Below are positions 1,390-53,758 of a stretch of 64,000 bases of DNA, one piece after another. Position 1 is the stretch's first letter; each line of letters opens with the position of its first letter. Both the position numbers and the translations under genes were made by a program. The stretch lies in contig JAMLHH010000001.1 in the NCBI GenBank assembly GCA_023957215.1, positions 81,383-145,382 of the forward strand, given 5' to 3'. The notes beneath the pieces are model-generated. The model did not search any database. It worked only from the letters and a program-made list of their open reading frames with translations, and was not told where the DNA came from. Source of the stretch: Chitinophagales bacterium (GTDB lineage Bacteria > Bacteroidota > Bacteroidia > Chitinophagales > JADIYW01).

Positions 1390-1818
1390 ATGGGAATGAT
1401 AGATGAATTTAAAGAGTTTGCGATCAAAGGTAACGCAATTGACATGGCAGTCGGTGTGATCATCGGGGGCGCATTTGGTACCATCATTACAAGTATAATA
1501 GATGATTTGATTATGCCGATTGTAGGTGCTATTGTAGGCAAACCGGATTTCAGCAGTCTGTATTTAGTGCTGAAAGGTAGTGTAGAACCCGGCTCTACCT
1601 TGGAACAGGCACGTGCAGCGGGTGATGCTACAATATTTGCCTATGGTAACTTTATTACAGTGGCTATCAACTTCTTCTTATTGGCTTTGGTAGTTTTCTT
1701 GATGGTGAAATCTATTAACAGTATGAAGAAAAAAGAGGCAGCAGCTCCGGCAGCGCCACCGACACCATCTAATGAAGAAGTATTGTTGGGTGAAATTAGA
1801 GATTTGCTCAAAAAATAA
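1390..1818 (+). CDS. mscL: Large-conductance mechanosensitive channel MscL
   Basis: This inner-membrane channel opens under membrane tension and releases solutes in hypo-osmotic shock. The sequence shows the family pattern: an amphipathic N-terminus (IDEFKEFAIKGNAIDMAVGV), TM1 rich in small residues (GVIIGGAFGTIITS), a periplasmic loop, TM2 (ITVAINFFLLALVVFLMV) and a cytoplasmic helix ending EEVLLGEIRDLLKK. The start at 1390 gives 142 residues, the usual family length. The frame stays open back to 1297, but those 31 extra residues match nothing in the family. A strong hairpin terminator follows the stop. Confidence 0.95.
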   Translation: MGMIDEFKEFAIKGNAIDMAVGVIIGGAFGTIITSIIDDLIMPIVGAIVGKPDFSSLYLVLKGSVEPGSTLEQARAAGDATIFAYGNFITVAINFFLLALVVFLMVKSINSMKKKEAAAPAAPPTPSNEEVLLGEIRDLLKK

Positions 1819-1835
1819 TAACAAATCTTAAAAAG

Positions 1836-1872
1836 TAAAAAAGCTGTCGCAGTTACGCGACAGCTTTTTTTA
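1836..1872. terminator. Bidirectional rho-independent terminator between mscL and argF'
   Basis: A perfect 9-bp stem AGCTGTCGC / GCGACAGCT (1842-1850 with 1857-1865) encloses a 6-base loop. It is flanked by an A-tract on the left and a T-tract on the right, so it can end transcripts from both converging genes. Its right edge overlaps the last codons of argF'. Confidence 0.9.
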
Positions 1873-2826
1873 TACCCTTTTTTCTAAAATTCTCCTGATG
1901 ACAGCTTGGGCAGCCCACTCTCTATTTCCTGCTTGTCGTATGACAATGGAACTATCACTATCCAAGACCTCATCCGCAACAACTACATTCCTCCTGACCG
2001 GAAGACAGTGCATAAATTTAGCCTGATTGGTCAATGCCATTTTACCGGGAGTCACTAACCAACTAAAATCTTCTTTTAAAACTTTGCCATAATCTTCATA
2101 TGAAGACCAATTTTTGGCATAAATAAAATCAGCATTCTTGAAAGCTTCTCTTTGGGTGTGAAATACCTGTGCATCACCGGTAAATTCTTTAGAAAGATTA
2201 TATCCTTCGGGATTAGCTATGACAAACTCTACATCTGCCCGATTCATCCACTGTGCAAAACTGTTAGACACGCATTGTGGTAAAGGTTTGATATGAGGCA
2301 CCCATGTGAGAACGACTTTGGGGCGTTTTTTTTGAGTAAACTCTCGAATGGTTGCCAAATCTGTCAAAGATTGTAAAGGATGTACCGTAGCAGATTCCAT
2401 ATTCACCACCGGCACACTCGAATATTTCACAAACTGATTTAAAATAAACTCTTGATAATCTTTTGTTCTATCTGTCAAAGATGGAAAACTACGTAAAGCG
2501 ATGATATCTGCATATTCACTGATGACAGCGGCACCTTCTTTGATATGCTCGGCAGTATTTCCTTTCATAATCACTCCATCAGCAAATTCCATATTCCAAC
2601 TATCTTGACCCAAGTTTAAAACGATGGCATTCATTCCGAGATTGAGTGCAGCTTTCTGTGTACTAAGTCGTGTACGCAAACTGCTATTTAAAAAGACCAA
2701 AACCAAAGTCTTGTTTTGACCCAAATATTTCCATCTGAATGGATCTTTCTTGATTTCTAATACTTCTTGTGCAAGTTTTTCAACATCATCTACATCATCG
2801 GCTGAAATAAAATTAAAATCTGTCAT
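1870..2826 (-). CDS. argF': N-acylornithine carbamoyltransferase (ArgF', acetyl/succinyl type)
   Basis: It transfers the carbamoyl group to N-acetyl- or N-succinylornithine in the arginine pathway used by Bacteroidota. The 318 residues follow the Bacteroides fragilis succinylornithine enzyme closely. They contain the carbamoyl-phosphate motif NSSLRTRLSTQKAALNLGMN, PVVNMESATVHPLQSLTDL, and the HCLPVRR motif near the C-terminus. Start 2826 is preferred: a TAnnTTTG box lies just upstream at 2845-2852, and an in-frame extension to 2883 would begin before that promoter. At the position that separates the known enzymes (Pro90 in succinyl, Glu92 in acetyl types) this protein has Ala92 (…GNTAEHI…), so the acyl group used cannot be assigned. 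Confidence 0.9.
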   Translation of the reverse strand: MTDFNFISADDVDDVEKLAQEVLEIKKDPFRWKYLGQNKTLVLVFLNSSLRTRLSTQKAALNLGMNAIVLNLGQDSWNMEFADGVIMKGNTAEHIKEGAAVISEYADIIALRSFPSLTDRTKDYQEFILNQFVKYSSVPVVNMESATVHPLQSLTDLATIREFTQKKRPKVVLTWVPHIKPLPQCVSNSFAQWMNRADVEFVIANPEGYNLSKEFTGDAQVFHTQREAFKNADFIYAKNWSSYEDYGKVLKEDFSWLVTPGKMALTNQAKFMHCLPVRRNVVVADEVLDSDSSIVIRQAGNREWAAQAVIRRILEKRV

Positions 2827-2844
2827 AGGTCTATTGTTTATCGT

Positions 2845-2852
2845 CAAAGGTA
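2845..2852 (-). promoter_or_regulatory. -7 box TACCTTTG for argF'
   Basis: On the minus strand this reads TACCTTTG, a match to the Bacteroidota -7 consensus TAnnTTTG, ending 18 bases before the argF' ATG. No convincing -33 TTG was found at 17-23 bases. It supports the start at 2826. Confidence 0.5.
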
Positions 2853-3019
2853 AAAATTTTATACCAATAGTAAATACAGACACTATTGTCTATTGTTTTG
2901 TTGTATTTCTTGACATTAAAATATCGATCATTGCAAACGGTATTAAAAATCTGTTAAAAGTGAGTTGTTGGTAAGTTAACATTTTCTCAATAAAACAATT
3001 ATTTGCATCTTGCGTTTAT

Positions 3020-3565
3020 ATGCGTTTTTTGATTTCAATCTTCTGCACATTTTGGGTAAGCGGCTCTTTTTTTGCCAAAGATATCAATCTATGCTCCTTA
3101 GAAGCTGCATCTTATGATTATGATATTGATTATCAAAACTTAGTGACTTTTTTGGGTGAAGAAAAAATAGATATAGAAAGCTCGGCTTTTCCTGATGTAT
3201 ATGCTTTTGCCTATTCATGGTTGCATACGCCGTACAGATATGGAGGTGATTCAAAAAATGGTATCGATTGTTCAAGATTTGTAATGAAATTGTTTAATCA
3301 GGTATTAGGTCTTAATACGGTTGGAACTTCTGCTGAGCTTTCAAGAATGGGTCAGACAGTAGATAAATCACAATTAAAAGAAGGTGATTTAGTATTTTTT
3401 ACAACTCGTGGAAAAAGCATTAGCCACGTTGGGATTTACTTACAAAATAACAAATTTGTACATTCCAGTACCAGTAAAGGCGTGATAGTATCTTCCTTGG
3501 ATGAACCTTATTGGAAACGCACTTACGCCAAATCTACCCGTTTTTACGAGCCACATCCTTTCTAA
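3020..3565 (+). CDS. Secreted NlpC/P60 (C40) cell-wall hydrolase
   Basis: This 181-residue protein has an N-terminal signal segment (MRFLISIFCTFWVSGSFFA) followed by one NlpC/P60 domain. These papain-like cysteine peptidases cut peptide stems of peptidoglycan (D-Glu to diamino acid bond). The triad is visible: Cys84 in GIDCSRFV, His136 in SHVGIYL and His148 in FVHSSTSKG. The YRYGGDSKNGIDCSRF stretch and EGDLVFF are family hallmarks. It has no extra binding domain. It stands alone between argF' (divergent) and tatC (convergent). Confidence 0.88.
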   Translation: MRFLISIFCTFWVSGSFFAKDINLCSLEAASYDYDIDYQNLVTFLGEEKIDIESSAFPDVYAFAYSWLHTPYRYGGDSKNGIDCSRFVMKLFNQVLGLNTVGTSAELSRMGQTVDKSQLKEGDLVFFTTRGKSISHVGIYLQNNKFVHSSTSKGVIVSSLDEPYWKRTYAKSTRFYEPHPF

Positions 3566-12031: not shown

Positions 12032-13475
12032 CTATTTCACTATCACAAATGGCAGAGATTGTATCTGACCATTGCTTCTGTCTGTAATTTGTAAGTAATA
12101 AGTACCTGCTGCAAATCTGCTGACATCTATCGTATTACTCGTTTCAACTTTATCTATAGACATCATCAATCGACCATCAGTAGAAATTACATTGAACTGG
12201 GTTTTTAACAAATCTTTACCCTTTATCTCCACTCTCAATAAACTTGAAGTAGGATTAGGATAGAGTCTGATACTTGTTTCGTCACATCCGATAACGTTTA
12301 CACTGACTATCTTATGAGTAGCTACAGTACCGTCAAAGTCAGTTTGTTTTAATCTGTAATAAACCAAACCACTTTGTACTTCTTGATCCACATAGGTATA
12401 ATCATGTCTTAAGTTTGTCGTACCATTACCGCTCATCGTTGCAATGGTTTCCCAACCTTTGGCATTGTAGCTTCTTTGAACCTCAAAGTAATCGTTGTTT
12501 AGTTCGGAGGCAGTTGCCCATTGCGTGAGAACTTTACAATCTTCAGATGTCGCAGTAAAGTAAATTAGTTCTATCGGAAGTGCAGCATCAGTAGTTATTC
12601 TGTAATCTACCGCAGGGCTTGAAAAGCCTGCATTATCTACCAAACTGTATTGGAAGCCTAATGGCTTATCAGTGAGACTATCTACTTGACCGGCTCCTTT
12701 CATACCGTATATGACAAGTTTATTAGGATCATAGTTTACCAAAGTGTCACCCGGTACTACTTCATCCACTCCTCTGTTTCCACCAAAGTCATAATACAGT
12801 CTTGTAGTAGGATAAATTTCATTGATAATATAAGTAGCGTTGTCCTTACATACGACACAATCTTCAGGGTCACTTCCCGTTAGCAATCCTTTATTCACAT
12901 AATTGGTGACACCTGTTAATGATGGGCTACTTGTCGGAATTGAGTAATAATCATCACCGGTAGGTGTAGTAACAGCCGGATAACCACTAACCGGAGTCAG
13001 GCTAAAGTCTGTTGTCTCCAAATAGTATTCTTTTGGATCAGCCAATGGTGGTTGTTGAATACCAAAATTGATATCTACCAAATTTGTTCTTGGCTTACCT
13101 ACTTCACTATTTTTACCATCAATATTGCCATCATTACCAGAAACTGCATCTATTTTACCCAATTTCTCTCCTGTACTCACCCAGCCGTCAGGCAGGGTTG
13201 ATGAAGTGACCGTAGTACCTTTTTCTCTTTGTACGGTATCTATTACTACTAAAAGATCTGTCTGGAATGGAGCATTAGTAAATTCGTAAGTACCATCTGA
13301 ATTGACAGGGACACTTTGCAAGACGACTCCGTTTGTATCTGTCAATATCGCATAAATTTGACCACCCACATTCACACCAGCACCATTCACATAGTCATCT
13401 GTCATACCGTTTCCATCATGGTAAACATTTCCTTGTATTGTCAGTCCTTCACCTATCAACATGCAAATGCCTAGT
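12032..13475 (-). pseudogene. C-terminal part of the giant surface protein, with T9SS sorting domain (frameshifted)
   Basis: This frame continues the giant protein after a frame break at 13454-13475. It begins with an SdrD-like module (LTIQGNVYHDGNGMTDDYV) and a further beta region. It ends in a type A T9SS sorting domain: LYPNPTSSLLRVEI, STDGRLMMSI, FAAGTYYLQI and the basic end FVIVK. T9SS cargo needs this domain to cross the outer membrane. There is no signal peptide or plausible independent start; upstream codons in this frame are an out-of-frame reading of the repeat. Without correction, recoding or a sequencing error, the body would lack its sorting signal. Confidence 0.75.
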
Positions 13476-16400
13476 ACAAAGTGGTTTTGGTTGGATGACA
13501 GTACTGTCACAGATTCCATATACACTTCTATCAGGACCTACATAATCTTTTGGTGGATTGTAGGTATAAGTACCGTTGTCATAATAAGTGATTGTACCGC
13601 CTTTCTCTGTTGAGTCTGTACGGACAGGCTGCTTGTTGCCTTCTGTTATACTTGGGTCGATAATCACTTTTGTACCATTCTCTTTGGTCATATATATAGG
13701 ATTATCATCCGGATCACTGTCATTATCTACAAAGTTGCCCTTCACCGGTGTATTCACAGTCGTGTATGAGAAGTCATCACCTGCATGAGGTGGATTGTTT
13801 TCAGGACCACGAGCATCAATGATTGGACGCTCTACTGTAATGACTACTTGAGCTTTGTCTTTTGCAGGTTGTGCAGTATAATCATCCGTGATTTCATAGT
13901 CGTAAGTAACCGTTCCGGCAAAACCGTTTTCAGGTGTGAAGACCATGTTTCCATTTTCATCCAAACTCAAATGACCTGCAACGTCCACTGGATTACCTTT
14001 TTCATCTATTCCACTAACTGGAATATTATTAACAGGATGTGTATTGTCCACACTCACTGTATGTGATCCATTGACATCATTATAAGTAATTTCAGTGATT
14101 GTAAAACCATCGCCTTGTGGATCGGCATCATTAATCAAGATATTACTTTCTACAGGACTGCCTTTTGTGTGATACTCATCATTATTAGCAATTATACTAT
14201 TTGCATCCGTTGGTTTTGGTGACACCGTGATTTCTAATATTGCCGTATCTCTGGCTACTCCCGCAGGATTGTCTTTGTCCTTGATAGTATATGGTACACT
14301 GACTGTTCCCACAAAGTCATTGATTGGGGTAAAGGTATAGTTACCGTTAGCATCAAATTTCAAATAACCTGCTCCTGTTACTGTATTACCATTTGCATCT
14401 ACTCCATTGACTAATGTACCTTGACCGCTACCACTAATTGGTGTGCCACTGCCATCTTGCTTGATAAAGCTTTCAAACACTTGTACATCTCCTTCTTTGT
14501 CAAAGTCGTTGGTCATTACATTGCCGTCAACAGGTGTATTGACCCATGTGCTGTTTTCGTCATTGACTGCATTAGTACTATTCTTACCACCTACCAATAC
14601 GTGAACTGTTGCTTCCGCACATAGTGGCTTAGGTTGTATCACCGTACTGTCACAGATTCCATATACACTTCTGTCCGGTCCTACATAATCTTTAGGTGGA
14701 TTGTAGGTATAAGTACCGTTGTCGTAGTATGTGATTGTACCGCCTTTCTCTGTTGAGTCTGTACGGACAGGCTGTTTGTTGCCTTCTGTTATACTTGGGT
14801 CAATGATTACTTTCGTACCATCTTCCTTAGTCATATAGACAGGATCGTCATTCAAGTCTCCGTCATTGTCGATAAAGCCACCATCTACAGGTGTATTTAT
14901 ATCAGTATATGAGAAGTCATCTCCTGCAAATGGCGGATCATTCTTAGGACCGTTGTTGTCTTTCACTACTGTAATCACTACCGTTGCATTATCTGTTGCT
15001 GGGTTGCCATTATCATCCGTGATTTCATAGTCGTAAGTAACCGTTCCGGCAAAACCGTTTTCAGGTGTGAAGACCATGTTTCCATTTTCATCCAAACTCA
15101 AATGACCTGCTACGTCCACTGGATTGCCTTTTTCATCTATTCCACTAACAGGAATATTATTAACAGGATGTGTATTGTCCACACTCACTGTATGTGATCC
15201 ATTGACATCAGTATAAGTAATTTCAGTGATTGTAAAACCATCGCCTTGTGGATCGGCATCATTAATCAAGATATTACTTTCTACAGGACTGCCTTGTGTA
15301 TAATATTCGTCATTGTTAGCGATGACACTATTTTCTTTTGTATTCAATGGTGACACCGTGATTTCCAATACAGCCGTATCTCTGGCTACTCCCGCAGGAT
15401 TGTCTTTGTCCTTGATAGTATATGGTACACTGACTGTTCCCACAAAGTCATTGATTGGGGTAAAGGTATAGTTACCGTTACCATCAAATTTCAAATAACC
15501 TGCTCCTGTTACTGTATTACCATTTGCATCTACTCCATTGACTAATGTACCTTGGCCACTACCACTAATTGGTGTGCCACTGCCATCTTGCTTAATAAAG
15601 CTTTCAAACACCTGTACATCTCCTTCTTTGTCAAAGTCGTTGGTCATCACATTGCCATCTACCGGTGTATTCACCCAAGTGGAGTTTTCATCGTTAACTG
15701 CATTGGTTGTATTCAATATAAGATAATCAGTCACATCATCTACAATAGGTGTTTTTACAAAGTTAGATGTTGCACTTGCCTTATTATATATAGAATCTAT
15801 AGCAGGATTATTTACTACCACCTTATAAGTAACTACTAAAGAGTCTCCCGGTAATATTGACCAATCACTTGCTAATACAGAAGGTGAACCAACATTACCT
15901 TGTATTATCTGAGTAGTAGTACTAGAGTAACTAATGATAATCTGACCATCAGCACCGGCACCGCCATTTCTAGTACCAGATGTTCTTCTGGCTCCACCGC
16001 CACCGCCACCCGGAATAAAGCCCGGATTACCATCAGCATTGACATTCACACCGTCACCGCCATTACCTCCACCTGTTGGTGCAGTGGCTCCACTTATATT
16101 AGTTGCATTTACTCCATTAGCAGAAACTCCGGCTGATGAGCCTCCACCTCCGGCATCATTACCGCTTGCATTAGCTCCATTTCCACCGGCATATCTAATA
16201 TCACCTTTAGCTCCAGTGCTACCACTTGTACTACTTGTACCACCATTAGCACCAGAAGTAGAGTTATTTGCAACACTACTTCCCCCTTTTGCTCTAACAA
16301 TAACATTATTGTTGTTGTTTTGACTTCCACTAGTAGTTGCAAACCAAGTATCATCACCTGCACTAGTACTATTCCCGGCAGCACCAGCACCCACAGAATA

Positions 16401-19400
16401 ATAATAAGTTCCTTGTGACACGTTGAATGTACTTTCGGACATCCCACCGCCACCTCCGCCACCGTAAGCTCCGCTACCACTTGACCTTGAACCTCCGGAT
16501 CCACCACCTGCCCATGCTTGTACGGTCAATGAAGTTACACCATTCGGAACTACAAAAGAACCTGCACTCGAACCCGATAAGGTGTCAGTGTGTTGGACAG
16601 AAACTTGAATTTGATTATTACCCAATGCCGCATTTGTAGAGTTGGTTACATAAGTAACTCCTGTCGGAAGAGTATCCGTCAACTTAACACTATTGTGTAT
16701 AAAATCATCATTATTTTTTACAACAATTCGATAAGTGATAGTGTCTCCCGCCATATAACCATTTACAACATCTGATGTTTTCTTAATACTCAATTTGCTA
16801 TATGCCACACCAAAGTTAACCTCATCTACCGTTACATCAGAATTTGTAGTGTAATAAGTATTCAAATTACCTATGGATACAACACCTTCAGTATTGTTTG
16901 TATTAGCACTTGGTGTTGTACCGCGATTCGTACCGGTATAGTAAGTATTATCTGGTGCTTGATCTCCAGTGGTTAGGTTGGAACCTATGGTTTTCTTACC
17001 TTTAGTCAAAATCACCTGATAATCTCCGGATTCTGATAAATCTCTGTTACTTACTTCTATTTCATAAGTGCCATCGGCATTTACATTGGCTTGACCAATC
17101 ACTTCTCCTTCTGGATTAACCAAATTTGCCCAAATATTACTATTGCCTAAATTACCCTCACTATTGTCTAAAATAGCATCTTCATTCTCATCTATCCAAA
17201 TATTACCTGGTATAGTAATTTTATATTCTTTACAATTTTCAACTGTTATCAAAACCTGAACTATTGCACCTGCACATTCGGAAGATGGAGGAAGTTCATA
17301 ATAGACTCTGACATTTCTTTGTGTTACAGCACCTGAACCACTACCCCAATTCATGTTTCGGGCATCTAACATTCCGTTTTGATCAATGCTGACACTGTTA
17401 AATATCGAACCAGAAGTCTGACCATCCACACTTGCGATACTATAAACACCACCTACTGGTTCTCCAATTAACTCAATCAAATCTGCATTACAATAGGTAG
17501 CATAGTTAGCCAATTTAGGTTTTAATGTACCATCCACAGTCGGCAGACCACATACATCAATCACGTTAGATTCAAACTGTACAGGATTTATAGAATTGTC
17601 ATCAGTAGAACCATCTCCCATACTACCATTTGTCTTATGTCCGATATACCCAAAAGTATTGTTACATTTTTTTAAAAGCATAGTTGTATGGCTACCTGAT
17701 TCTACAGTGATTACATCATTGTTTCCACCAGTAAACTGGGTAGGCATACCCGGATCTACTTTTGTACTAGCACTTGTAGATTGGTGTACTCCTCTTCCCA
17801 AATCATAACCACTTTCTTGTCCCCAGTTCCAAACTTCCCCATTATTATTTCTTGATATTACATTAATCATAGGGTATTCATTGTAGCTATGTTCTTGAGG
17901 AGATATCCAAGCGATATTATTCATAATATTACTTGTACCTCCTCCACTTGCATATCGAGGTTGTTGCCATGAGTCGAATGTAGTAGTAGTCGAAAAATTT
18001 CCTATCTGACCATCTCTATTACCTCCGAGTGCATATAAAGCACCATCCTGATATAATACATAATAAGTCATATCCACAGGGCGTTGATTCTGTCCAGTAC
18101 CAACAGTATAATTAAAAGCCGTATAGCCACTCCATGCTTGCATTTCTTTCATAGCACCTATCATTTTGATAGTTCCGGCTTTAGGTCTAGTCATTTTAAC
18201 TGCATAAGTTCTGTTTGCAACTGTAGTATTATTACCTAAACGAGTTCCATATCCCCATGTCCATAAATCTCCATTTTCATCTAAGGCAACTAAACCTGCA
18301 GATGTACCACGCGTAGCGATAATATTTTCTAAATAACCGCTTGCTGTATTTCCATTGCTATTATTACTATACTGTACCCGTACCCAGTCTGTACTTCCTC
18401 CACCTTGATTAATCAAATCATTTTGAGACAAGACATAAACTTCACCACTACAAGTAGTCAGTGCCAAGGTCTGTACTGTACCAAATAACATCTTGACATC
18501 AGAAGCACTAACTCCTGTCGGAAGTCCGATAGTCAGCTGTCTAAAATCTCGTTCAGAGTTGCCGGAGCCTCCAGGTGTTAACGAGCTATTAACCAACACT
18601 CCTTTCCAACCCCATGCCCATAATTTATCATCACTTGTCAACAAGATAAATTGCGGATGATCCCACATACTCGCCATAGCAATCATCACTGGTTCTCCAG
18701 TATAATTATATCCATTGCCTGGCGTAATAGACGTCGGTACTAATGAAGGATTCTTGCTAGAATTACCAACCGGGCCGGTATATTCTCCCCAAACTTTGAT
18801 AGTTCCATCTACCCACTGAGCTGCGGACGAATGCCAAACTGATATTACATTATCATAACTCAAAGAAGCCGGATCTTCTGATTTAAAGCCGGAGTTTTCC
18901 GGATTCACACAAGTAGCTTCTCCCAAACAATTCAAGAATGTAGGGCCAGGGCATTTCACTGTCTGAACTGCATTGTTGGAGACGATATTATTACAACCCA
19001 CTCCGGATGGAAGTCCGTCACATTCATCTTGTGGATCTGTGGGGATTGTATCAGTCGAATTGATATCTGTCGCATTAATATCTTCAAAATCTGCCGGTCT
19101 CAAAATAGAAGCCTTAACACCAATATTTGAGTTAGCCACCAATGGAGGATTTATGCGGCCTTTGATAGTAAATAATCCTTTACTACCATTTTTAATATCC
19201 ACCAATACAGAATATTGAGTATTGGTAATATCTGCGCTTCCGTTTTGTAATGATGTTGTTCCAACTATAGTCGAGTAGGAAACATTCCAAATCTCAAAGC
19301 CGTCAGGATAATCAAAGAAAAACTTAGCACCTTCTGCATCATCCGTCAATCCATTACCACTGATATTTTCAATCTCTATTGTATAAACAACTGTATCTGC

Positions 19401-21107
19401 ACATACAGTGGCTGTGTTCACGTTAGACGTAACACTATTGACTGCCAAGTCTCCAATATGTCTTATTAAAGAAGAGGCGATTACTTGTGGAACACTTTCC
19501 ACAAAAGTCCAAGTATCAATTGTCCTATTATTACCATAAAAGTCTGTGTCTGGGCCACCTCCACCTGAGGAAGAGCCAATACCACTCCATTTATGACCAT
19601 TGGAATTACTGCTGATACCATCATTTTTATTGTTTCTCGGGTTAGATGCAATCTGACCAGCCTTGGCATTTAAATCAGTTGGAGAATCATTCCAATAGAC
19701 TATATCTTTCCCGGGAATCAAAGTGTAATTATTTGTATGGTCAGTCTGCTGAATAATAAATCCATCCCAATTCGACTCTACGTCTATAAAAGGAAAGTGT
19801 ACTTCAGAAACACTGATAACGCCTCTCACAGTAACACCGGCATTGTTAGGAATCAAATTTCCAAAATTATCTTTTCCATCCCAATGTATTTGCACTTCTT
19901 CATTAGCATTTGCATCACCAATAAATGTAACATCCACAGGATCCGTATAGCTTCCATTGCTATCAACATCTATATAGATTCTATATTGTCCTGAAATATT
20001 AGAGGTGAAAGAAATAATACTTCCTTTAGGACCTACAGTATTAGCACTATTAGCTTCAAATCCTACAAGTTTTAAATTGTTTATCTGCGGAACTACAGGT
20101 GTATTTTTCAACCATGTAGTAGCTGTAGGGTTGCTTCCGAATTTAATTGAAGCAGATGTTGGCAAGTCAGTTGCAGGTTTATTGAAAAACAATTTATTGG
20201 TAATATTATTTCCATTATCAGCTTGTCTCGGATCCCATACATTTGATGACACCGTCGCTAAATCTGATGCATCCAAACTTACATAAGCAGAGCCTCCATT
20301 CGGAAAATTGGTCATTACTCCTTTGTTATTACTAAAAAAGTTAAAAGAGGCCCCATTCTGTCCATTATTATCCACTAAGTAAACAAAACCTTCTGGTGTT
20401 AGAACATAAAATTTCGCATAGAAAGAACGTTCATTAAATCTTGTATTGGGAGCGGTACCGTTAAAAACTGTTGTATAAGCTCTACCAGAAATCAATGTAC
20501 CTGAAGAGCCTACTGAAACATCCCAAGCTGCAATCAATGATGCACTATAAGCATGTGCTTCCTGCACCCAGTTACCGTTAGCAGTATAGTTTCTATCTGT
20601 ACCTGAACCTGTAGTGGAAGAACTAATATTTGTTCCATAACCGACTGTCGTAAAATTAATCTCCCAAATACCTTCTTGGGCACTTGTAACGGTTCTCGTA
20701 TAAGCATTATACCCACCATTATTATTGATATTGGGCCCTATCAATTCCTGAGATCTATTTTGAATTCTACCGACCGTCGTACTCGTACCTGAGGTATAAG
20801 TATCGCCATTGGGCGCTTTCAATTGAATGCTGGCAGTAGTCCCACTTAATGACATCCCTTGCATGCTGGATCCCACATAGATAGTCTCTCCAGATTTTGC
20901 ATATATATACATCCGCCCCGGGTTGGAGAAAGGGTTAAAAGCAGCATCAGTCGTAGAACTCAATAAATAAGCTCTGTATCCTTGCGCACCGTTAGGATAC
21001 AAATCTTTACTACCTTCGGCATATACGTATGTGCTGAATGAAAATAGCAATAGCAGGAGGATAGCTATCGGATTTTGAAAGGATTTAGTTTGTAAAAAAT
21101 TTCTCAT
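13449..21107 (-). CDS. Giant multidomain surface protein (adhesin-like), body
   Basis: The 2552-residue frame starts with a signal peptide (FQNPIAILLLLLFSFSTYVYA). Domains in order, approximate residues: a beta-rich head (30-530), a DUF11/Ig-like segment (~550-700), RCC1-like repeats (~780-1170; LWAWGWKG, LWTWGYGTRLGNN, LYALGGNRDGQIG, VWNWGQ), an SdrD-like module (~1300-1430), a DUF11 repeat (~1440-1530), a glycine-rich stretch (~1530-1720), then cadherin/Ig-like repeats (~1795-2552) in two near-identical blocks. Such proteins act in adhesion or gliding. Cys/Gly-poor, Asn/Asp/Thr-rich composition fits a secreted surface protein. The frame stops at 13449, just before the rest of the protein continues in another frame. 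Confidence 0.8.
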   Translation of the reverse strand: MRNFLQTKSFQNPIAILLLLLFSFSTYVYAEGSKDLYPNGAQGYRAYLLSSTTDAAFNPFSNPGRMYIYAKSGETIYVGSSMQGMSLSGTTASIQLKAPNGDTYTSGTSTTVGRIQNRSQELIGPNINNNGGYNAYTRTVTSAQEGIWEINFTTVGYGTNISSSTTGSGTDRNYTANGNWVQEAHAYSASLIAAWDVSVGSSGTLISGRAYTTVFNGTAPNTRFNERSFYAKFYVLTPEGFVYLVDNNGQNGASFNFFSNNKGVMTNFPNGGSAYVSLDASDLATVSSNVWDPRQADNGNNITNKLFFNKPATDLPTSASIKFGSNPTATTWLKNTPVVPQINNLKLVGFEANSANTVGPKGSIISFTSNISGQYRIYIDVDSNGSYTDPVDVTFIGDANANEEVQIHWDGKDNFGNLIPNNAGVTVRGVISVSEVHFPFIDVESNWDGFIIQQTDHTNNYTLIPGKDIVYWNDSPTDLNAKAGQIASNPRNNKNDGISSNSNGHKWSGIGSSSGGGGPDTDFYGNNRTIDTWTFVESVPQVIASSLIRHIGDLAVNSVTSNVNTATVCADTVVYTIEIENISGNGLTDDAEGAKFFFDYPDGFEIWNVSYSTIVGTTSLQNGSADITNTQYSVLVDIKNGSKGLFTIKGRINPPLVANSNIGVKASILRPADFEDINATDINSTDTIPTDPQDECDGLPSGVGCNNIVSNNAVQTVKCPGPTFLNCLGEATCVNPENSGFKSEDPASLSYDNVISVWHSSAAQWVDGTIKVWGEYTGPVGNSSKNPSLVPTSITPGNGYNYTGEPVMIAMASMWDHPQFILLTSDDKLWAWGWKGVLVNSSLTPGGSGNSERDFRQLTIGLPTGVSASDVKMLFGTVQTLALTTCSGEVYVLSQNDLINQGGGSTDWVRVQYSNNSNGNTASGYLENIIATRGTSAGLVALDENGDLWTWGYGTRLGNNTTVANRTYAVKMTRPKAGTIKMIGAMKEMQAWSGYTAFNYTVGTGQNQRPVDMTYYVLYQDGALYALGGNRDGQIGNFSTTTTFDSWQQPRYASGGGTSNIMNNIAWISPQEHSYNEYPMINVISRNNNGEVWNWGQESGYDLGRGVHQSTSASTKVDPGMPTQFTGGNNDVITVESGSHTTMLLKKCNNTFGYIGHKTNGSMGDGSTDDNSINPVQFESNVIDVCGLPTVDGTLKPKLANYATYCNADLIELIGEPVGGVYSIASVDGQTSGSIFNSVSIDQNGMLDARNMNWGSGSGAVTQRNVRVYYELPPSSECAGAIVQVLITVENCKEYKITIPGNIWIDENEDAILDNSEGNLGNSNIWANLVNPEGEVIGQANVNADGTYEIEVSNRDLSESGDYQVILTKGKKTIGSNLTTGDQAPDNTYYTGTNRGTTPSANTNNTEGVVSIGNLNTYYTTNSDVTVDEVNFGVAYSKLSIKKTSDVVNGYMAGDTITYRIVVKNNDDFIHNSVKLTDTLPTGVTYVTNSTNAALGNNQIQVSVQHTDTLSGSSAGSFVVPNGVTSLTVQAWAGGGSGGSRSSGSGAYGGGGGGGMSESTFNVSQGTYYYSVGAGAAGNSTSAGDDTWFATTSGSQNNNNNVIVRAKGGSSVANNSTSGANGGTSSTSGSTGAKGDIRYAGGNGANASGNDAGGGGSSAGVSANGVNATNISGATAPTGGGNGGDGVNVNADGNPGFIPGGGGGGARRTSGTRNGGAGADGQIIISYSSTTTQIIQGNVGSPSVLASDWSILPGDSLVVTYKVVVNNPAIDSIYNKASATSNFVKTPIVDDVTDYLILNTTNAVNDENSTWVNTPVDGNVMTNDFDKEGDVQVFESFIKQDGSGTPISGSGQGTLVNGVDANGNTVTGAGYLKFDGNGNYTFTPINDFVGTVSVPYTIKDKDNPAGVARDTAVLEITVSPLNTKENSVIANNDEYYTQGSPVESNILINDADPQGDGFTITEITYTDVNGSHTVSVDNTHPVNNIPVSGIDEKGNPVDVAGHLSLDENGNMVFTPENGFAGTVTYDYEITDDNGNPATDNATVVITVVKDNNGPKNDPPFAGDDFSYTDINTPVDGGFIDNDGDLNDDPVYMTKEDGTKVIIDPSITEGNKQPVRTDSTEKGGTITYYDNGTYTYNPPKDYVGPDRSVYGICDSTVIQPKPLCAEATVHVLVGGKNSTNAVNDENSTWVNTPVDGNVMTNDFDKEGDVQVFESFIKQDGSGTPISGSGQGTLVNGVDANGNTVTGAGYLKFDANGNYTFTPINDFVGTVSVPYTIKDKDNPAGVARDTAILEITVSPKPTDANSIIANNDEYHTKGSPVESNILINDADPQGDGFTITEITYNDVNGSHTVSVDNTHPVNNIPVSGIDEKGNPVDVAGHLSLDENGNMVFTPENGFAGTVTYDYEITDDYTAQPAKDKAQVVITVERPIIDARGPENNPPHAGDDFSYTTVNTPVKGNFVDNDSDPDDNPIYMTKENGTKVIIDPSITEGNKQPVRTDSTEKGGTITYYDNGTYTYNPPKDYVGPDRSVYGICDSTVIQPKPLCTRHLHVDR
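13476..14576 (-). repeat. Tandem ~1.1-kb intragenic repeat, copy 2
   Basis: This copy (1101 bp) runs from the TNAVNDENSTWVNTPVDG start to PKPLC. It encodes about 367 residues of Ig/cadherin-like modules nearly identical to the neighbouring copy at the DNA level over long stretches. It is 12 bp longer than copy 1, an in-frame difference. The frame break lies directly after its end. Confidence 0.88.
14619..15707 (-). repeat. Tandem ~1.1-kb intragenic repeat, copy 1
   Basis: This 1089-bp copy has the same borders as copy 2 and encodes the same three module types: VNDENSTWVN…, NNDEYYTQGSPVESN…, and AGDDFSYTDINTPV…. A 42-base linker (AEATVHVLVGGKNS) joins it to copy 2. The high DNA identity indicates recent duplication or gene conversion. 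Confidence 0.88.
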
Positions 21108-21420
21108 ATCGTACGTTTAAATGTTTTCAAATGGATTCATACAACTACTTATTAGTAGGTGTTGTTCAATGTTATAAAAAGGAATATCTTTCCCATATAT
21201 ATTGAGAAAAAAGTTGTTTCTAAAATAGACAAATATAAAATGTATAACTTTAATCATAGTATCTCTTTGATTTACAATACAAAAGTATATCTGTTTTACA
21301 ATCAATTATAAGCATCATTCATTTCTTTACAAGAATATAAAAGTATATTAATAGCAACTTTATAGTTACTATACAGTTTACAAAGCTACATCGGCAAGAC
21401 AAATATTATTGTGTTGAATG
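21108..21420. other. Upstream region of the giant adhesin gene
   Basis: This AT-rich non-coding stretch precedes the minus-strand adhesin. A minus-strand TAGCTTTG (21388-21381) fits the -7 consensus and would give a leader of about 270 bases. No -33 element was convincing. No gene was recognised. Confidence 0.3.
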
Positions 21421-21472
21421 AGTGAACAAGGCGTTTCATTAAGTGAACAAGGCGTTTCATTGAGCGAACGAG
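21421..21472. repeat. 21-bp direct repeat, two and a half copies
   Basis: Units at 21421-21441 and 21442-21462 differ only in the last base. A degenerate third partial unit follows to 21472. The unit length is three times seven, as in the heptamer array that begins about 95 bases further on. Confidence 0.75.
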
Positions 21473-21566
21473 AAAAATAAAGTTTGCAGATAATAGTAAG
21501 ATAACGCTGAAGTGATGAATAGGTAATGGAAGTTAGTAAATGAGTAAATGTGAGAATTAGCAAATA

Positions 21567-22231
21567 GACGATAGACCACAGACGATAGACCACAGACCAC
21601 TGACAACTAAAAATTAAAAGTTAAAAACTAAAAACTAAAAACTAAAAACTAAAAACTAAAAACTAAAAGTTGACTGCCGACCGATGACTGCTGACCATTA
21701 ATAACTGACTACAGACCATAGACCATAGACCACTGACAACTAAAAATTAAAAGTTAAAAACTAAAAACTAAAAACTAAAAGTTGACTGCCGATTGATGAC
21801 TGCTGACCACTAATAACTGACCACAGACCACAGACCACTGACTACTGACCACTAATAACTGACCATAGACCATAGACCATAGACCACTGACAACTAAAAG
21901 TTAAAAGTTAAAAGTTAAAAACTAAAAACTAAAAGTTGACTGCCGATCGATGACTGCTGACCACTAATAACTGACTACAGACCATAGACCATAGACCATA
22001 GACCACTGACAACTAAAAATTAAAAGTTAAAAGTTAAAAGTTGACTGCCGACCGATGACTACTGACCACTAATAACTGACCATAGACCATAGACCATAGA
22101 CCACTGACAACTAAAAGTTAAAAGTTAAAAACTAAAAACTAAAAGCTGACTGCCAACCGATGACTGCTGACCACAAATCACTGACCACTGACCACTGACC
22201 ACTGACCACTGACCACTAATAATTAATAACT
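21567..22231. repeat. Heptamer-periodic array (95 x 7 bp)
   Basis: The whole 665 bp can be cut into consecutive seven-base words without a slip. The main words are GACCACT, GACCATA, AAAAACT, AAAAGTT, AATAACT, GACTGCC and GACTGCT. Words recur in a fixed order, forming a higher-order unit marked by GTTGACTGCC at 21669, 21781, 21935, 22040 and 22145 (GCTGACTGCC in the last). The spacings of 112, 154, 105 and 105 are all multiples of seven. There is no long open frame. It lies between the divergence side of the adhesin gene and the terminator of the SusCD operon. No function is known to me. Confidence 0.9.
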
Positions 22232-22260: not shown

Positions 22261-22288
22261 ATAAAAAAGGCCACCTTGCGGCAGCCTT
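22261..22288 (-). terminator. Terminator of the SusC/SusD operon
   Basis: On the minus strand AAGGCTGCC pairs with GGTGGCCTT (two G-T wobbles) around a GCAA tetraloop and is followed by a T-run. It lies 25 bases after the last gene of the operon. Confidence 0.85.
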
Positions 22289-22312: not shown

Positions 22313-22852
22313 TTAGTAATCCTCATCAGGTTGTCCGGTATATTTGATACCGGAATAGTAGAATACATCACCCGGAGAATCAGCAAACTCGACCTTAAAG
22401 AAAATACTATCTACTTTCTTACCAATCAAAGATGTTGCTCCTTTAGGAATGATTTTACCCTCTATAGAAGTCACCAACTCGACAACACTTGGATCTTGAC
22501 TCGGGATGATACTAATATAATCCCCCTTAACAAATTCCTTTGTTTCAGTATTGACAGCTATCTTAGATTGGAATGGCCAGATAGCATTATCTACTAACCA
22601 AAGAGAATCTTTAGAGTTTGCAGCATCATTAGAAGTCGTGAAATCAAAACCTGTGTCAGCATAATCCAAATATAAGTAATCATTATCATGGTTGAGAACA
22701 CCATCACCATCCGTATCAAGCCATAGTTGTATCCACCATCTACCTGACATATCCACTACATTGGATACCGGTGCTTCATATTCTTTCTCGCAAGAATTAA
22801 AGAGTGAGACTAGAAGCAGTGCAGAAATTATTAATAAACTTTTCTTTTTCAT
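22313..22852 (-). CDS. SusCD-linked lipoprotein (Lipid_bd / putative hydrolase family)
   Basis: The 179-residue protein has a lipoprotein signal with lipobox LFNSC (Cys21). The mature part contains MSGRWWIQLWLDTDGDG and a late segment SIFFKVEFADSPGDVFYYSGI. This matches the small lipocalin-like lipoproteins that follow SusC/SusD pairs in Bacteroidota (Pfam Lipid_bd), whose function is not established. It is the last gene of the four-gene operon and is followed by a clear terminator. It is 11 bases from its upstream neighbour. Confidence 0.7.
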   Translation of the reverse strand: MKKKSLLIISALLLVSLFNSCEKEYEAPVSNVVDMSGRWWIQLWLDTDGDGVLNHDNDYLYLDYADTGFDFTTSNDAANSKDSLWLVDNAIWPFQSKIAVNTETKEFVKGDYISIIPSQDPSVVELVTSIEGKIIPKGATSLIGKKVDSIFFKVEFADSPGDVFYYSGIKYTGQPDEDY

Positions 22853-42806: not shown

Positions 42807-42942
42807 CACTCATTCGTTTATTAAACAAAGATACTAAAAATTATAATCATAACTATAACTTTTAGTAAAATCTTATAAAGTTATAAGTATAACTATAATA
42901 TTTATCTCAATTTGTATTTCAAATCTTGGCTAAAAATCCATT

Positions 42943-43014
42943 GGTACATTGATACATTGATACATTGATACATCGGTACATCGGTATATCGGTACATCGG
43001 TACATCGGTACATT
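42943..43014. repeat. 8-bp tandem array, nine units
   Basis: Nine consecutive units of GRTACATY (GGTACATT, GATACATT, GATACATC, GGTACATC, GGTATATC) fill 72 bases. The array stops 2 bases before the stop codon of the VWA-like membrane protein gene and lies upstream of the DUF4143 ATPase gene. Confidence 0.9.
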
Positions 43015-43016
43015 AA

Positions 43017-45113
43017 TCAATACCTCCCAAACAGCTTCCTTAAAAACCATTCGATACTTAGTAAACATATAATGAGTGCTAATAGCCATTTGAAGTCCAA
43101 TAACGATTTCGTTTTGGCAGACTCTTTGAAAATAGGTTGGATACGTTCGTCTTGAAAAATCAAATCCTTTAAATTTTCTACCTCAGAATAGGTCAACATC
43201 TTTCCATTGTTTTGTAGTGCTATCGTATTCATCAAGCCAAAGTCTGCTTTGATTTGATTGGTTTCTATATCAAAAGCTTGTACGGCAAAACGATACTCAC
43301 TTTTTAAGGTTTGTTGTCCTAATTTTGAACTTGCCTCTATTTTATACGTACCTGTCGGTAGTTTTCCAAGACTATAACTGTATGCATTCGGCGTTTTATC
43401 CATGATAAACTCATCCTGATAACTTTCATCACTCGTGACAACAATTTTCACATCTTCACTATTCACCATTTGGGCACTTTCGTTGTAAATAGAAGCGTCA
43501 AGGTATATCCATTCGCTTTCGTTATAAATCGTTTTATTGGTTCTCACACGGAAAGACCGATGATCAGATTTGTCAGCAATATATTGTACCAATCTTTCTA
43601 CCCATTCTTGGCTATAATTTTGGTGTCCGTATTTGAAATATTCCTGCATAGGCCATCTCCAAATTCCTTCACCCAGCAAAATAGCCGTGATTTTTTGATT
43701 TTGTTCGCCGGTGACTAAAAGTGGTTGGGAAGTTTCCACACTGCCTATCTTTTGTTTCCAACAAATCTCTGCAATCGGTGCAAGCTCTAATTGACCATAA
43801 GGTGCGACCAAGGGTGGAACTTCTTGCAGCCACTTTTGAGAGGCCTCACTCACATAAAATTTTTGATAATTAGAAGAAAAACTCGGGAGCACCTCATTTT
43901 GTACCTTTAAGACATTGCTCAATTTGGCCAGAGATTGCATTTGGTCAAAAGCGGTGATATCTGTTCCGGCAGAATATATCCACCAGACAGAACTGTTTTT
44001 TTGTAAAGCCTGTTGTAGTTTGTTGTTAGCTACTTTATTTTTCACTGAAGGCAACCCATGTAAAATCAACAAATCCACTTTTTCATTTACATTGTTCCAC
44101 TGATCGATTTGCTCTACGTCCACTTCTATGTTTTTCATTTCCCGAAGTGTCTCTCTAATAAATTTAATGTCAGGATGTGGCGCATCGTATAGCAAAAGTA
44201 CTTTTTGCCTACCGTCTATCACTTGTATGTAAAAATCCTGTTGATTATTAGTTGTTATCCTTTCGCCCTCAAATATAGTCGTCTTGATTTTATACTTAAA
44301 AATACCCGCTGATTGCGGTTCGAAGGTAAAAGCTTGTGTTTGATGCCACTCTCTATCTTTGATAGAAAGTTCTTTTTGTTGAAGAATATTACCGCGACTG
44401 TCTTGCAATTGCACATTCACCGTTTTCCCATCTAAATATTCAGCTCCCAAATCGGCTAAAACTTCCACTTCATCACCGATATAGACAAGGTCATTCAACC
44501 TGAGCCTTTGCACTCTCATATCTTTTTGAGTAGAAGTATCACCCAAAGCTATCGTGTAAATCGGAATACCCGCAAAGGATGTATTGTAAATCGGATTAAT
44601 CCCTTGATTATAAATACCATCCGAACTCAATATTACAGCACCGATATGTTGACCATTACTTCTTTGCGCTACCTGCGTAAGCGCTTTGTCAATATCCGTT
44701 CCTTTTTCCTGAAATGCCCGGCTTTTATTTAAAGAATCTAAAATCTCTGTACCAAAATCATATTCCCTGACTTTGTATTTTTTAGAAATCTCAGCTAACG
44801 TTTTTTGATAATTTTCTTGAAAGGTATGAAGTTGATTTTTATCCATTCCCGCGGAAATAGAGGCGGTCCGGTCTTGAATTGCAATGATGACAGGCTCTAT
44901 CTTTTCATTGCTTACTTTTTTTATCAAAGGATTTAAAAGTAGAAGTCCCAAAAGTGAAAGTGCAGCCCATCTTAAAAACGCCATTAAGGCAATCCAAGGT
45001 CGGGCAATCTCAAAGTTTTTAGAACTATTTTTATAAAATAAAAAAGTAATGCCGGCAGCGATGACTGCTACCAATAAAAAAGACCAAGCGGGAGATGTCA
45101 AAATCCATTGCAT
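43017..45113 (-). CDS. Large membrane protein with VWA-like domain
   Basis: The 698 residues have two N-terminal membrane helices (SFLLVAVIAAGITFLFY, FLRWAALSLLGLLLLNP), a VWA-like segment (VIIAIQDRTASIS with a degenerate MIDAS, GAVILSSDGIYNQG), Ig-like and glutamine-amidotransferase-like regions, and one C-terminal helix (WLLALIICLLSIEWFLRKL). This plan is a known but unstudied Bacteroidota membrane protein type, related in layout to Bat aerotolerance proteins. Most of it should be periplasmic. A role in envelope integrity is inference. It follows fabG by 19 bases, so it may be co-transcribed. Confidence 0.7.
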   Translation of the reverse strand: MQWILTSPAWSFLLVAVIAAGITFLFYKNSSKNFEIARPWIALMAFLRWAALSLLGLLLLNPLIKKVSNEKIEPVIIAIQDRTASISAGMDKNQLHTFQENYQKTLAEISKKYKVREYDFGTEILDSLNKSRAFQEKGTDIDKALTQVAQRSNGQHIGAVILSSDGIYNQGINPIYNTSFAGIPIYTIALGDTSTQKDMRVQRLRLNDLVYIGDEVEVLADLGAEYLDGKTVNVQLQDSRGNILQQKELSIKDREWHQTQAFTFEPQSAGIFKYKIKTTIFEGERITTNNQQDFYIQVIDGRQKVLLLYDAPHPDIKFIRETLREMKNIEVDVEQIDQWNNVNEKVDLLILHGLPSVKNKVANNKLQQALQKNSSVWWIYSAGTDITAFDQMQSLAKLSNVLKVQNEVLPSFSSNYQKFYVSEASQKWLQEVPPLVAPYGQLELAPIAEICWKQKIGSVETSQPLLVTGEQNQKITAILLGEGIWRWPMQEYFKYGHQNYSQEWVERLVQYIADKSDHRSFRVRTNKTIYNESEWIYLDASIYNESAQMVNSEDVKIVVTSDESYQDEFIMDKTPNAYSYSLGKLPTGTYKIEASSKLGQQTLKSEYRFAVQAFDIETNQIKADFGLMNTIALQNNGKMLTYSEVENLKDLIFQDERIQPIFKESAKTKSLLDFKWLLALIICLLSIEWFLRKLFGRY

Positions 45114-53061: not shown

Positions 53062-53697
53062 ATGCCCAAAAGTCCGAGAGAAGCACTCCAATTTTTAAAA
53101 GAAGGGAATTACCGATTTACTCAAAACATTAAGAAAAACGTAGATTTATTACAACAAGTCAAACAAAACAAGGATAGACAGCATCCCTATGCCGCAATCG
53201 TGAGTTGTATAGATAGCCGTATCACCTCTGAGTTGATTTTCGATTTGGGGCTGGGAGATGTTTTTAGCACCCGATTAGCAGGAAATATTATCACTGAAAA
53301 TGTATTGGGTAGTCTTGAATTCTGTTGCAAGATTGCAGGAGCTTCACTTATCGTTATCTTGGGACACACAAGATGCGGAGCTGTCAGCGGGGCTTGTGAT
53401 CATATCGAGATGGGTAACTTAACGACCTTGCTGGATCATATTTTGCCCTCTGTGTTACAAGAAGTAACCGTAAAAGGTGACAGAACTTCTAAAAATTATG
53501 ATTTTGTCAATAAAGTAGCAAAAATCAATGTCTATCGTTCTGTGGATATCACTTTATCCCAAAGTGTTTTGATAAGAGATATGGTCAAAAGTGGTGAAGT
53601 GGCTATTATTGGAGCCATGTATGATGTCGTGAGTGGAAATGTAGAATTTTTTGAAGATACTTACTTATGCGGAGAGATAAGAACAGTGAATGTGTAA
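53062..53697 (+). CDS. Beta-class carbonic anhydrase
   Basis: This zinc enzyme interconverts CO2 and bicarbonate. The 211 residues carry all catalytic positions: Cys49, Asp51 and Arg53 in SCIDSR, and His102 and Cys105 in GHTRCGA. LAGNIITENVLGSLEF is the conserved stretch before the second metal site. No signal peptide is present, so it is cytoplasmic. It stands alone, with its own promoter and an 8-bp repeat array after the stop. Confidence 0.95.
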   Translation: MPKSPREALQFLKEGNYRFTQNIKKNVDLLQQVKQNKDRQHPYAAIVSCIDSRITSELIFDLGLGDVFSTRLAGNIITENVLGSLEFCCKIAGASLIVILGHTRCGAVSGACDHIEMGNLTTLLDHILPSVLQEVTVKGDRTSKNYDFVNKVAKINVYRSVDITLSQSVLIRDMVKSGEVAIIGAMYDVVSGNVEFFEDTYLCGEIRTVNV

Positions 53698-53704
53698 ATG
53701 TACC

Positions 53705-53752
53705 AATTTATCAATTTACTAATTTGCTAATTTACTAATTCGCTAATTTACA
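53705..53752. repeat. 8-bp tandem array, six units
   Basis: Six degenerate units of AATTTRCT (AATTTATC, AATTTACT, AATTTGCT, AATTTACT, AATTCGCT, AATTTACA) fill the gap between two converging genes, the carbonic anhydrase and the CBS-domain protein. The unit length equals that of the array at 42943-43014, but the sequence differs. Confidence 0.85.
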
Positions 53753-53758
53753 AGTAGG

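Follow-up and report, generated by a model that had tools for sequence, protein, structure and literature searches.

What process fills a gap between two bacterial genes with hundreds of bases that all fit one seven-base register, and why does the result persist there? We addressed this question for an array in the window, by which we mean the whole stretch of DNA that was analysed (64,000 nucleotides). The features of the array and its surroundings are as follows.

13449..21107, minus strand: ORF of 2552 aa, a presumed surface protein containing cadherin-like, Big_9 and CshA repeat domains.
21305..21332, minus strand: promoter-like site TTGTAA-16-TATAAT upstream of the surface-protein gene, at a frequency no higher than in shuffles.
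21421..21469, no strand: 21-bp repeat AGTGAACAAGGCGTTTCATTA (3 x 7) in 2.3 copies, found by TRF in the same intergenic region, between the array and the surface-protein gene.
21533..21566, plus strand: octamer-like leader TTAGTAAATGAGTAAATGTGAGAATTAGCAAATA directly before the heptamers; this genome has the order octamers-then-GACnAYA at three further loci.
21567..22231, no strand: heptamer array, 95 units and 21 words, with five GACTGCC words heading higher-order units.
22267..22288, minus strand: strong hairpin carrying a T tail, resembling an intrinsic terminator, which belongs to the operon whose last gene stops at 22313.
22313..22852, minus strand: last gene of a SusC/SusD-type operon (Pfam Lipid_bd).

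The array measures 665 bp, or 95 x 7, with zero slips, and its best phase is identical in 19 of 19 consecutive 35-bp blocks. Lag-7 identity reaches 0.734. Dinucleotide shuffling of the array, repeated 2000 times, gives 0.307 +/- 0.018 with a maximum of 0.381, and the remaining 665-bp stretches within the window stay at or below 0.346. The sequence-only reading had described 95 in-register heptamers without a slip and had proposed this autocorrelation check; both the uniform phase and the lag-7 signal uphold it. All word families that it had named are found, with GACCACT present 15 times, AAAAGTT and AAAAACT 13 times each, GACCATA 11 times and GACTGCC 5 times. It had also described a set word order with higher-order units of 105-154 bp, all multiples of seven. 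Consecutive GACTGCC words indeed lie 112, 154, 105 and 105 bp apart, and TRF recovers the same higher-order periods.

How are the words related to each other? A minimum spanning network joins the 21 distinct heptamers with a total length of 22, nearly every link being one base change, while random sets of 21 heptamers with this composition require about 56 changes (minimum 45). The words are therefore not "unlike", as had been thought; so short a network suggests that one heptamer was multiplied and mutated. Runs of a single word, including AAAAACT x6 and GACCACT x5, occur within the array. Judged from the sequence, descent from a single heptamer best accounts for the words, and block duplication for their set order. 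All 95 words carry A at position 2, and the other six of the seven positions vary; we rejected this invariant A as a sign of selection, because a single column left empty by 22 mutations across seven columns is not significant. There are no out-of-register indels in the 665 bp even though TRF match rates between higher-order copies are only 82-93%; this counts against growth by slippage or misaligned recombination, but the numbers are too small for significance. Indel and substitution counts from TRF at loose settings, meant to judge whether the register is protected, were mostly noise.

The position of the array suggests that it lies between transcription units. Its edge is ~36 bp beyond the terminator-like hairpin of the SusC/SusD-type operon, and on the other side it is upstream of the 2552-aa ORF, ~460 bp from the start of this ORF and ~235 bp from the promoter-like site. 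A coding function was ruled out, since each frame of the array contains 13-31 stops. An Rfam scan of the window gave no match and thus no known RNA. Read as RNA, the plus strand has no structure beyond shuffles (z 0.11), whereas the minus strand folds far better than dinucleotide shuffles (z -8.25), a result that repeats with G-U pairing can produce on their own; an RNA role is possible. A CRISPR array was excluded, in agreement with the earlier remark that CRISPR has a different plan: there are no unique spacers, and the seven flanking ORFs carry no Cas domains.

The array is not alone in its genome. We sampled ~490 kb of this genome's stretches, including the window, and added pattern searches; the sample is ~17% of the draft genome and partly array-chosen, and its ORF calls are mechanical. 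The period spectrum was taken from a 463-kb set with 42.7 kb of intergenic DNA, in which some contigs had been picked for pattern matches on them. At identities of at least 72% this set holds 11 intergenic arrays of period 7 and 12 of period 8, with ~0 in shuffles, and periods 1-6 and 9-13 gave no array at all in the sampled intergenic DNA. When the threshold was lowered to 64%, arrays of other periods turned up too, about as often as in shuffled DNA, and periods 7 and 8 remained prominent. Among short dispersed matches in the sample, 100 of 145 are 7/8-periodic. The 665-bp array is the largest of the sampled 7- and 8-base arrays. Two octamer arrays of the same genome-wide class lie in the window:

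42930..43023, no strand: octamer array TACCGATG/TACCAATG, abutting a gene 3' end.
53689..53755, no strand: octamer array AATTTACT/AATTCGCT, in the gap that separates two convergent ORFs.

The second of these fills the entire gap, so intergenic DNA there is purely repeat. A tandem repeat of another class, with a 167-bp unit, was called intergenic at L198 6970-7507.

The arrays also share their words. The nearest-neighbour distance between words of different loci is 0.56 for 7-mers (1.58 +/- 0.19 shuffled) and 0.72 for 8-mers (1.75 +/- 0.18 shuffled), and the families comprise GACnAYW/AACnACT, AGARYCA and ACTTCGT together with the octamers RATGTAYC and AATKnnnn. Whole modules are dispersed as well: octamers followed by GACGATA-type heptamers occur at four loci, one of which is the left edge of our array, where the leader-type module matches the other loci at 81-84% over 54-68 bp (E 1e-12 to 4e-16). 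Between two module loci, on contigs C12 and C35, segments of 76 bp and 52 bp are 95% and 96% identical. A mosaic of octamers with GACGATA and ACTTCGT heptamers is common to two unlinked gene 3' ends, L195 11818-11950 and L202 844-1130, at 95-96% identity over 76 and 52 bp.

With respect to genes, arrays were found in 11 of 52 convergent, 24 of 248 tandem and 4 of 99 divergent gaps (convergent vs divergent, p = 0.003), as would be expected if they are tolerated away from promoters. They favour gene 3' ends and often begin at the stop codon. At L036 (G000:C12) 1675-3173, AACnACT/AAAAACT heptamer arrays lie between consecutive genes, which we take from their sequence to be a type I restriction operon, and run straight into start codons.

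We also compared the locus with four genomes of the same family. Each has an orthologue of the Lipid_bd gene (35-40% identity) with a hairpin and T run at its 3' end, and none of the four carries an array at the matching place. There, the hairpin is followed within ~100 bp by another gene, which by its sequence is presumably that of the ATP synthase a subunit (atpB). The gene order beside the array differs from that of the relatives. An array-mediated rearrangement next to atpB was considered and rejected, as no array adjoins atpB in this genome. In the two other species of the genus the Lipid_bd gene has no match and the SusC gene gave partial matches only.

Arrays of this kind extend well beyond the genome. 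Four other Bacteroidota genomes, counted outside the stretches fetched around known matches, hold two arrays of period 7 and five of period 8 in 36 kb of intergenic DNA; retaining low-complexity sequence adds one homopolymer-type run and nothing more. In a scan with four GACCAYW words, the matches listed include Planctomycetes, Chloroflexi, Cyanobacteria, Acidobacteria, Bacteroidota, Verrucomicrobia, Desulfobacteria and others, often with mixed words. RAYNACT arrays were found in 49 of 296 Bacteroidota genomes and, counted by hand, in ~30 for the reversed control, and are therefore only mildly enriched; we accordingly claim neither a universal word nor a lexicon specific to the word type of this array. 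Short GACCAYW arrays occur in 33 viral-contig stretches. The whole array has no match among plasmids and phages, and its origin from either was rejected on this ground. The earlier suggestion was to look for the array words elsewhere; the word families are common to other loci of the genome, and similar arrays exist in other genomes.

Together these results point to a long, diversified heptanucleotide array located in a gap between operons. It is among the many 7- and 8-bp arrays dispersed in this genome and probably grew by slippage or misaligned recombination combined with point mutation. One heptamer would have been duplicated in register, in 7-bp steps, by replication slippage or misaligned recombination; point mutations would then have altered the copies by one base each, runs of variants would have expanded locally, and blocks of 15-22 words would have been duplicated to give the 105-154-bp units. 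We infer slippage or recombination as the mechanism of growth. Our sequence analyses found no evidence of function at the locus, and the array would persist without a function of its own because it lies outside transcription units. The sequence-only reading had offered two causes. Of the first, a template-independent or slippage-type process in 7-bp steps, stepwise duplication by slippage or misalignment stands, in accordance with the single-step word network, the homogeneous runs, the nesting in multiples of seven and the arrays of period 7 or 8 only across the sampled genome. Template-independent synthesis is unsupported, because the words descend from one another by copying and are similar to those of other loci. 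The second, selection for a 7-bp spacing, found no positive evidence at the locus, where there is no plus-strand structure, no coding and no conservation in relatives.

Could the words instead be a regulatory element, either bound at fixed spacing by a protein on DNA or RNA or tuning the surface-protein gene by copy number in the manner of phase variation? The array does lie upstream of that large gene, its words are common to several loci, in the C12 operon two arrays extend up to start codons, and for related repeats a role as regulatory or RNA-binding sites close to start or stop codons has been suggested (PMC4679880, PMC4692102). We nevertheless consider this improbable: neither neighbour's likely transcript includes the array, as the hairpin at 22267-22288 indicates, it is ~235 bp further upstream than the promoter-like site, relatives do not conserve it, 21 words varying at six of seven positions are loose for a binding site, and the genome's arrays avoid the divergent gaps in which promoters lie. 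We likewise think it rather unlikely that ready-made 7/8-bp modules are spread between intergenic sites by some mobile or copying process and that the array was assembled from such insertions instead of arising locally by slippage. The module at four loci, the segments of 95-96% identity shared by C12 and C35, the frequent start of arrays at a stop codon and the different gene order beside the array all speak for such a process, and module dispersal does show that copying between loci also occurs. Against it, no terminal repeats, target duplications or transposase were noticed with the array, though without a systematic search, the whole array matches no plasmid or phage, the atpB gene that adjoins the locus in relatives has no array next to it here, and the word network inside the array fits stepwise growth.

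An assembly artefact would concern only part of the structure, namely the copy number or higher-order arrangement in this draft. At 665 bp the array is longer than short reads, and a contig of a related genome (G002:C15) ends in a similar array. However, the array is internal to a 179-kb contig, the 7-bp periodicity and word types recur at independent loci and in other genomes, and the units differ by substitutions and are therefore not simple collapses; such an artefact is very unlikely. Local growth by slippage or misaligned recombination is the reading that we retain. Slippage alone nonetheless leaves unaccounted for why periods are restricted to 7 and 8, and why the same words appear at unlinked loci and GACCAYW in many phyla. 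A proposal of Mrazek et al. 2007, as relayed in PMC4679880, equates 7 nt with the length of DNA contacting the polymerase, and a contact length of this kind would suit the restriction to 7 and 8. It is conceivable, if doubtful, that Bacteroidota and several other phyla have a genome-wide system of intergenic 7- and 8-bp arrays, located by preference behind stop codons, which one shared mechanism makes or maintains in steps of only 7 or 8 nt and from a small, reused lexicon. The array would then be the largest product of this system in its neighbourhood.

Heptamer arrays are a long-standing observation in bacteria, and no mechanism for them has been established. The restriction to 7 and 8, with a shared lexicon and about equal shares in the sampled intergenic DNA, constrains models based on polymerase contact length, recombinase overlap or binding spacing, and this strict rule is the interesting residue after explanation. 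Equal octamer shares with all other periods absent, and nested 105-154-bp units, were described nowhere that we found in the open-access literature. Cyanobacterial STRR repeats are heptanucleotide simple-sequence repeats, and the array fits a known, little-studied class of heterogeneous intergenic heptanucleotide repeats, of which it would be a long new case. As in the heptanucleotide long simple-sequence repeats (LSSRs) of bacteria (Mrazek 2007, as cited in PMC4679880 and PMC4692102), a tandem 7-bp unit occurs above chance in noncoding intergenic DNA, with many arrays per genome.

In Xanthomonas and Nostoc, the repeats (GGGANTN)n and GGGGA(C/T)T, respectively, are intergenic heptamers of mixed words that lie close to stop codons and are seldom found between divergent genes (PMC4692102). 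The arrays described here resemble them in having fixed and variable positions, in their proximity to stop codons and in their scarcity in divergent gaps. Those repeats are G-rich and form G-quadruplexes, whereas our array words lack G runs: G-tracts of at least three per unit, the mark of G-quadruplex heptamers, are missing, as 0 of 21 words contain GGG or CCC. TAACTGA direct repeats occur in Beggiatoaceae, Cyanobacteria and Bacteroidetes, with up to 43 copies in the latter two, and some Bacteroidetes carry long mixed arrays of this type (PMC4679880). That ordinary repeats keep no register across mixed words, as the sequence-only reading had held, is therefore mistaken for this class, in which Xanthomonas, cyanobacterial and Bacteroidetes heptamers all mix (PMC4692102, PMC4679880). 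GATAACT is a rotation of TAACTGA, and AATAACT and GACCACT lie near it; the exact repeat (MacGregor 2015) is absent, since GATAACT, the in-register rotation, is not among the 21 array words. In the Beggiatoaceae strain sets of 2-6 copies lie mostly directly upstream of start codons, whereas our array has 95 copies far from gene starts. The LSSR and STRR repeats are likewise intergenic tandem 7-bp units of mixed words, dispersed in the genome and of no known function; this genome differs from them in that octamer arrays are as common as heptamers, with no other period from 1 to 13 in the sample, and the array itself in its nested units of 105-154 bp.
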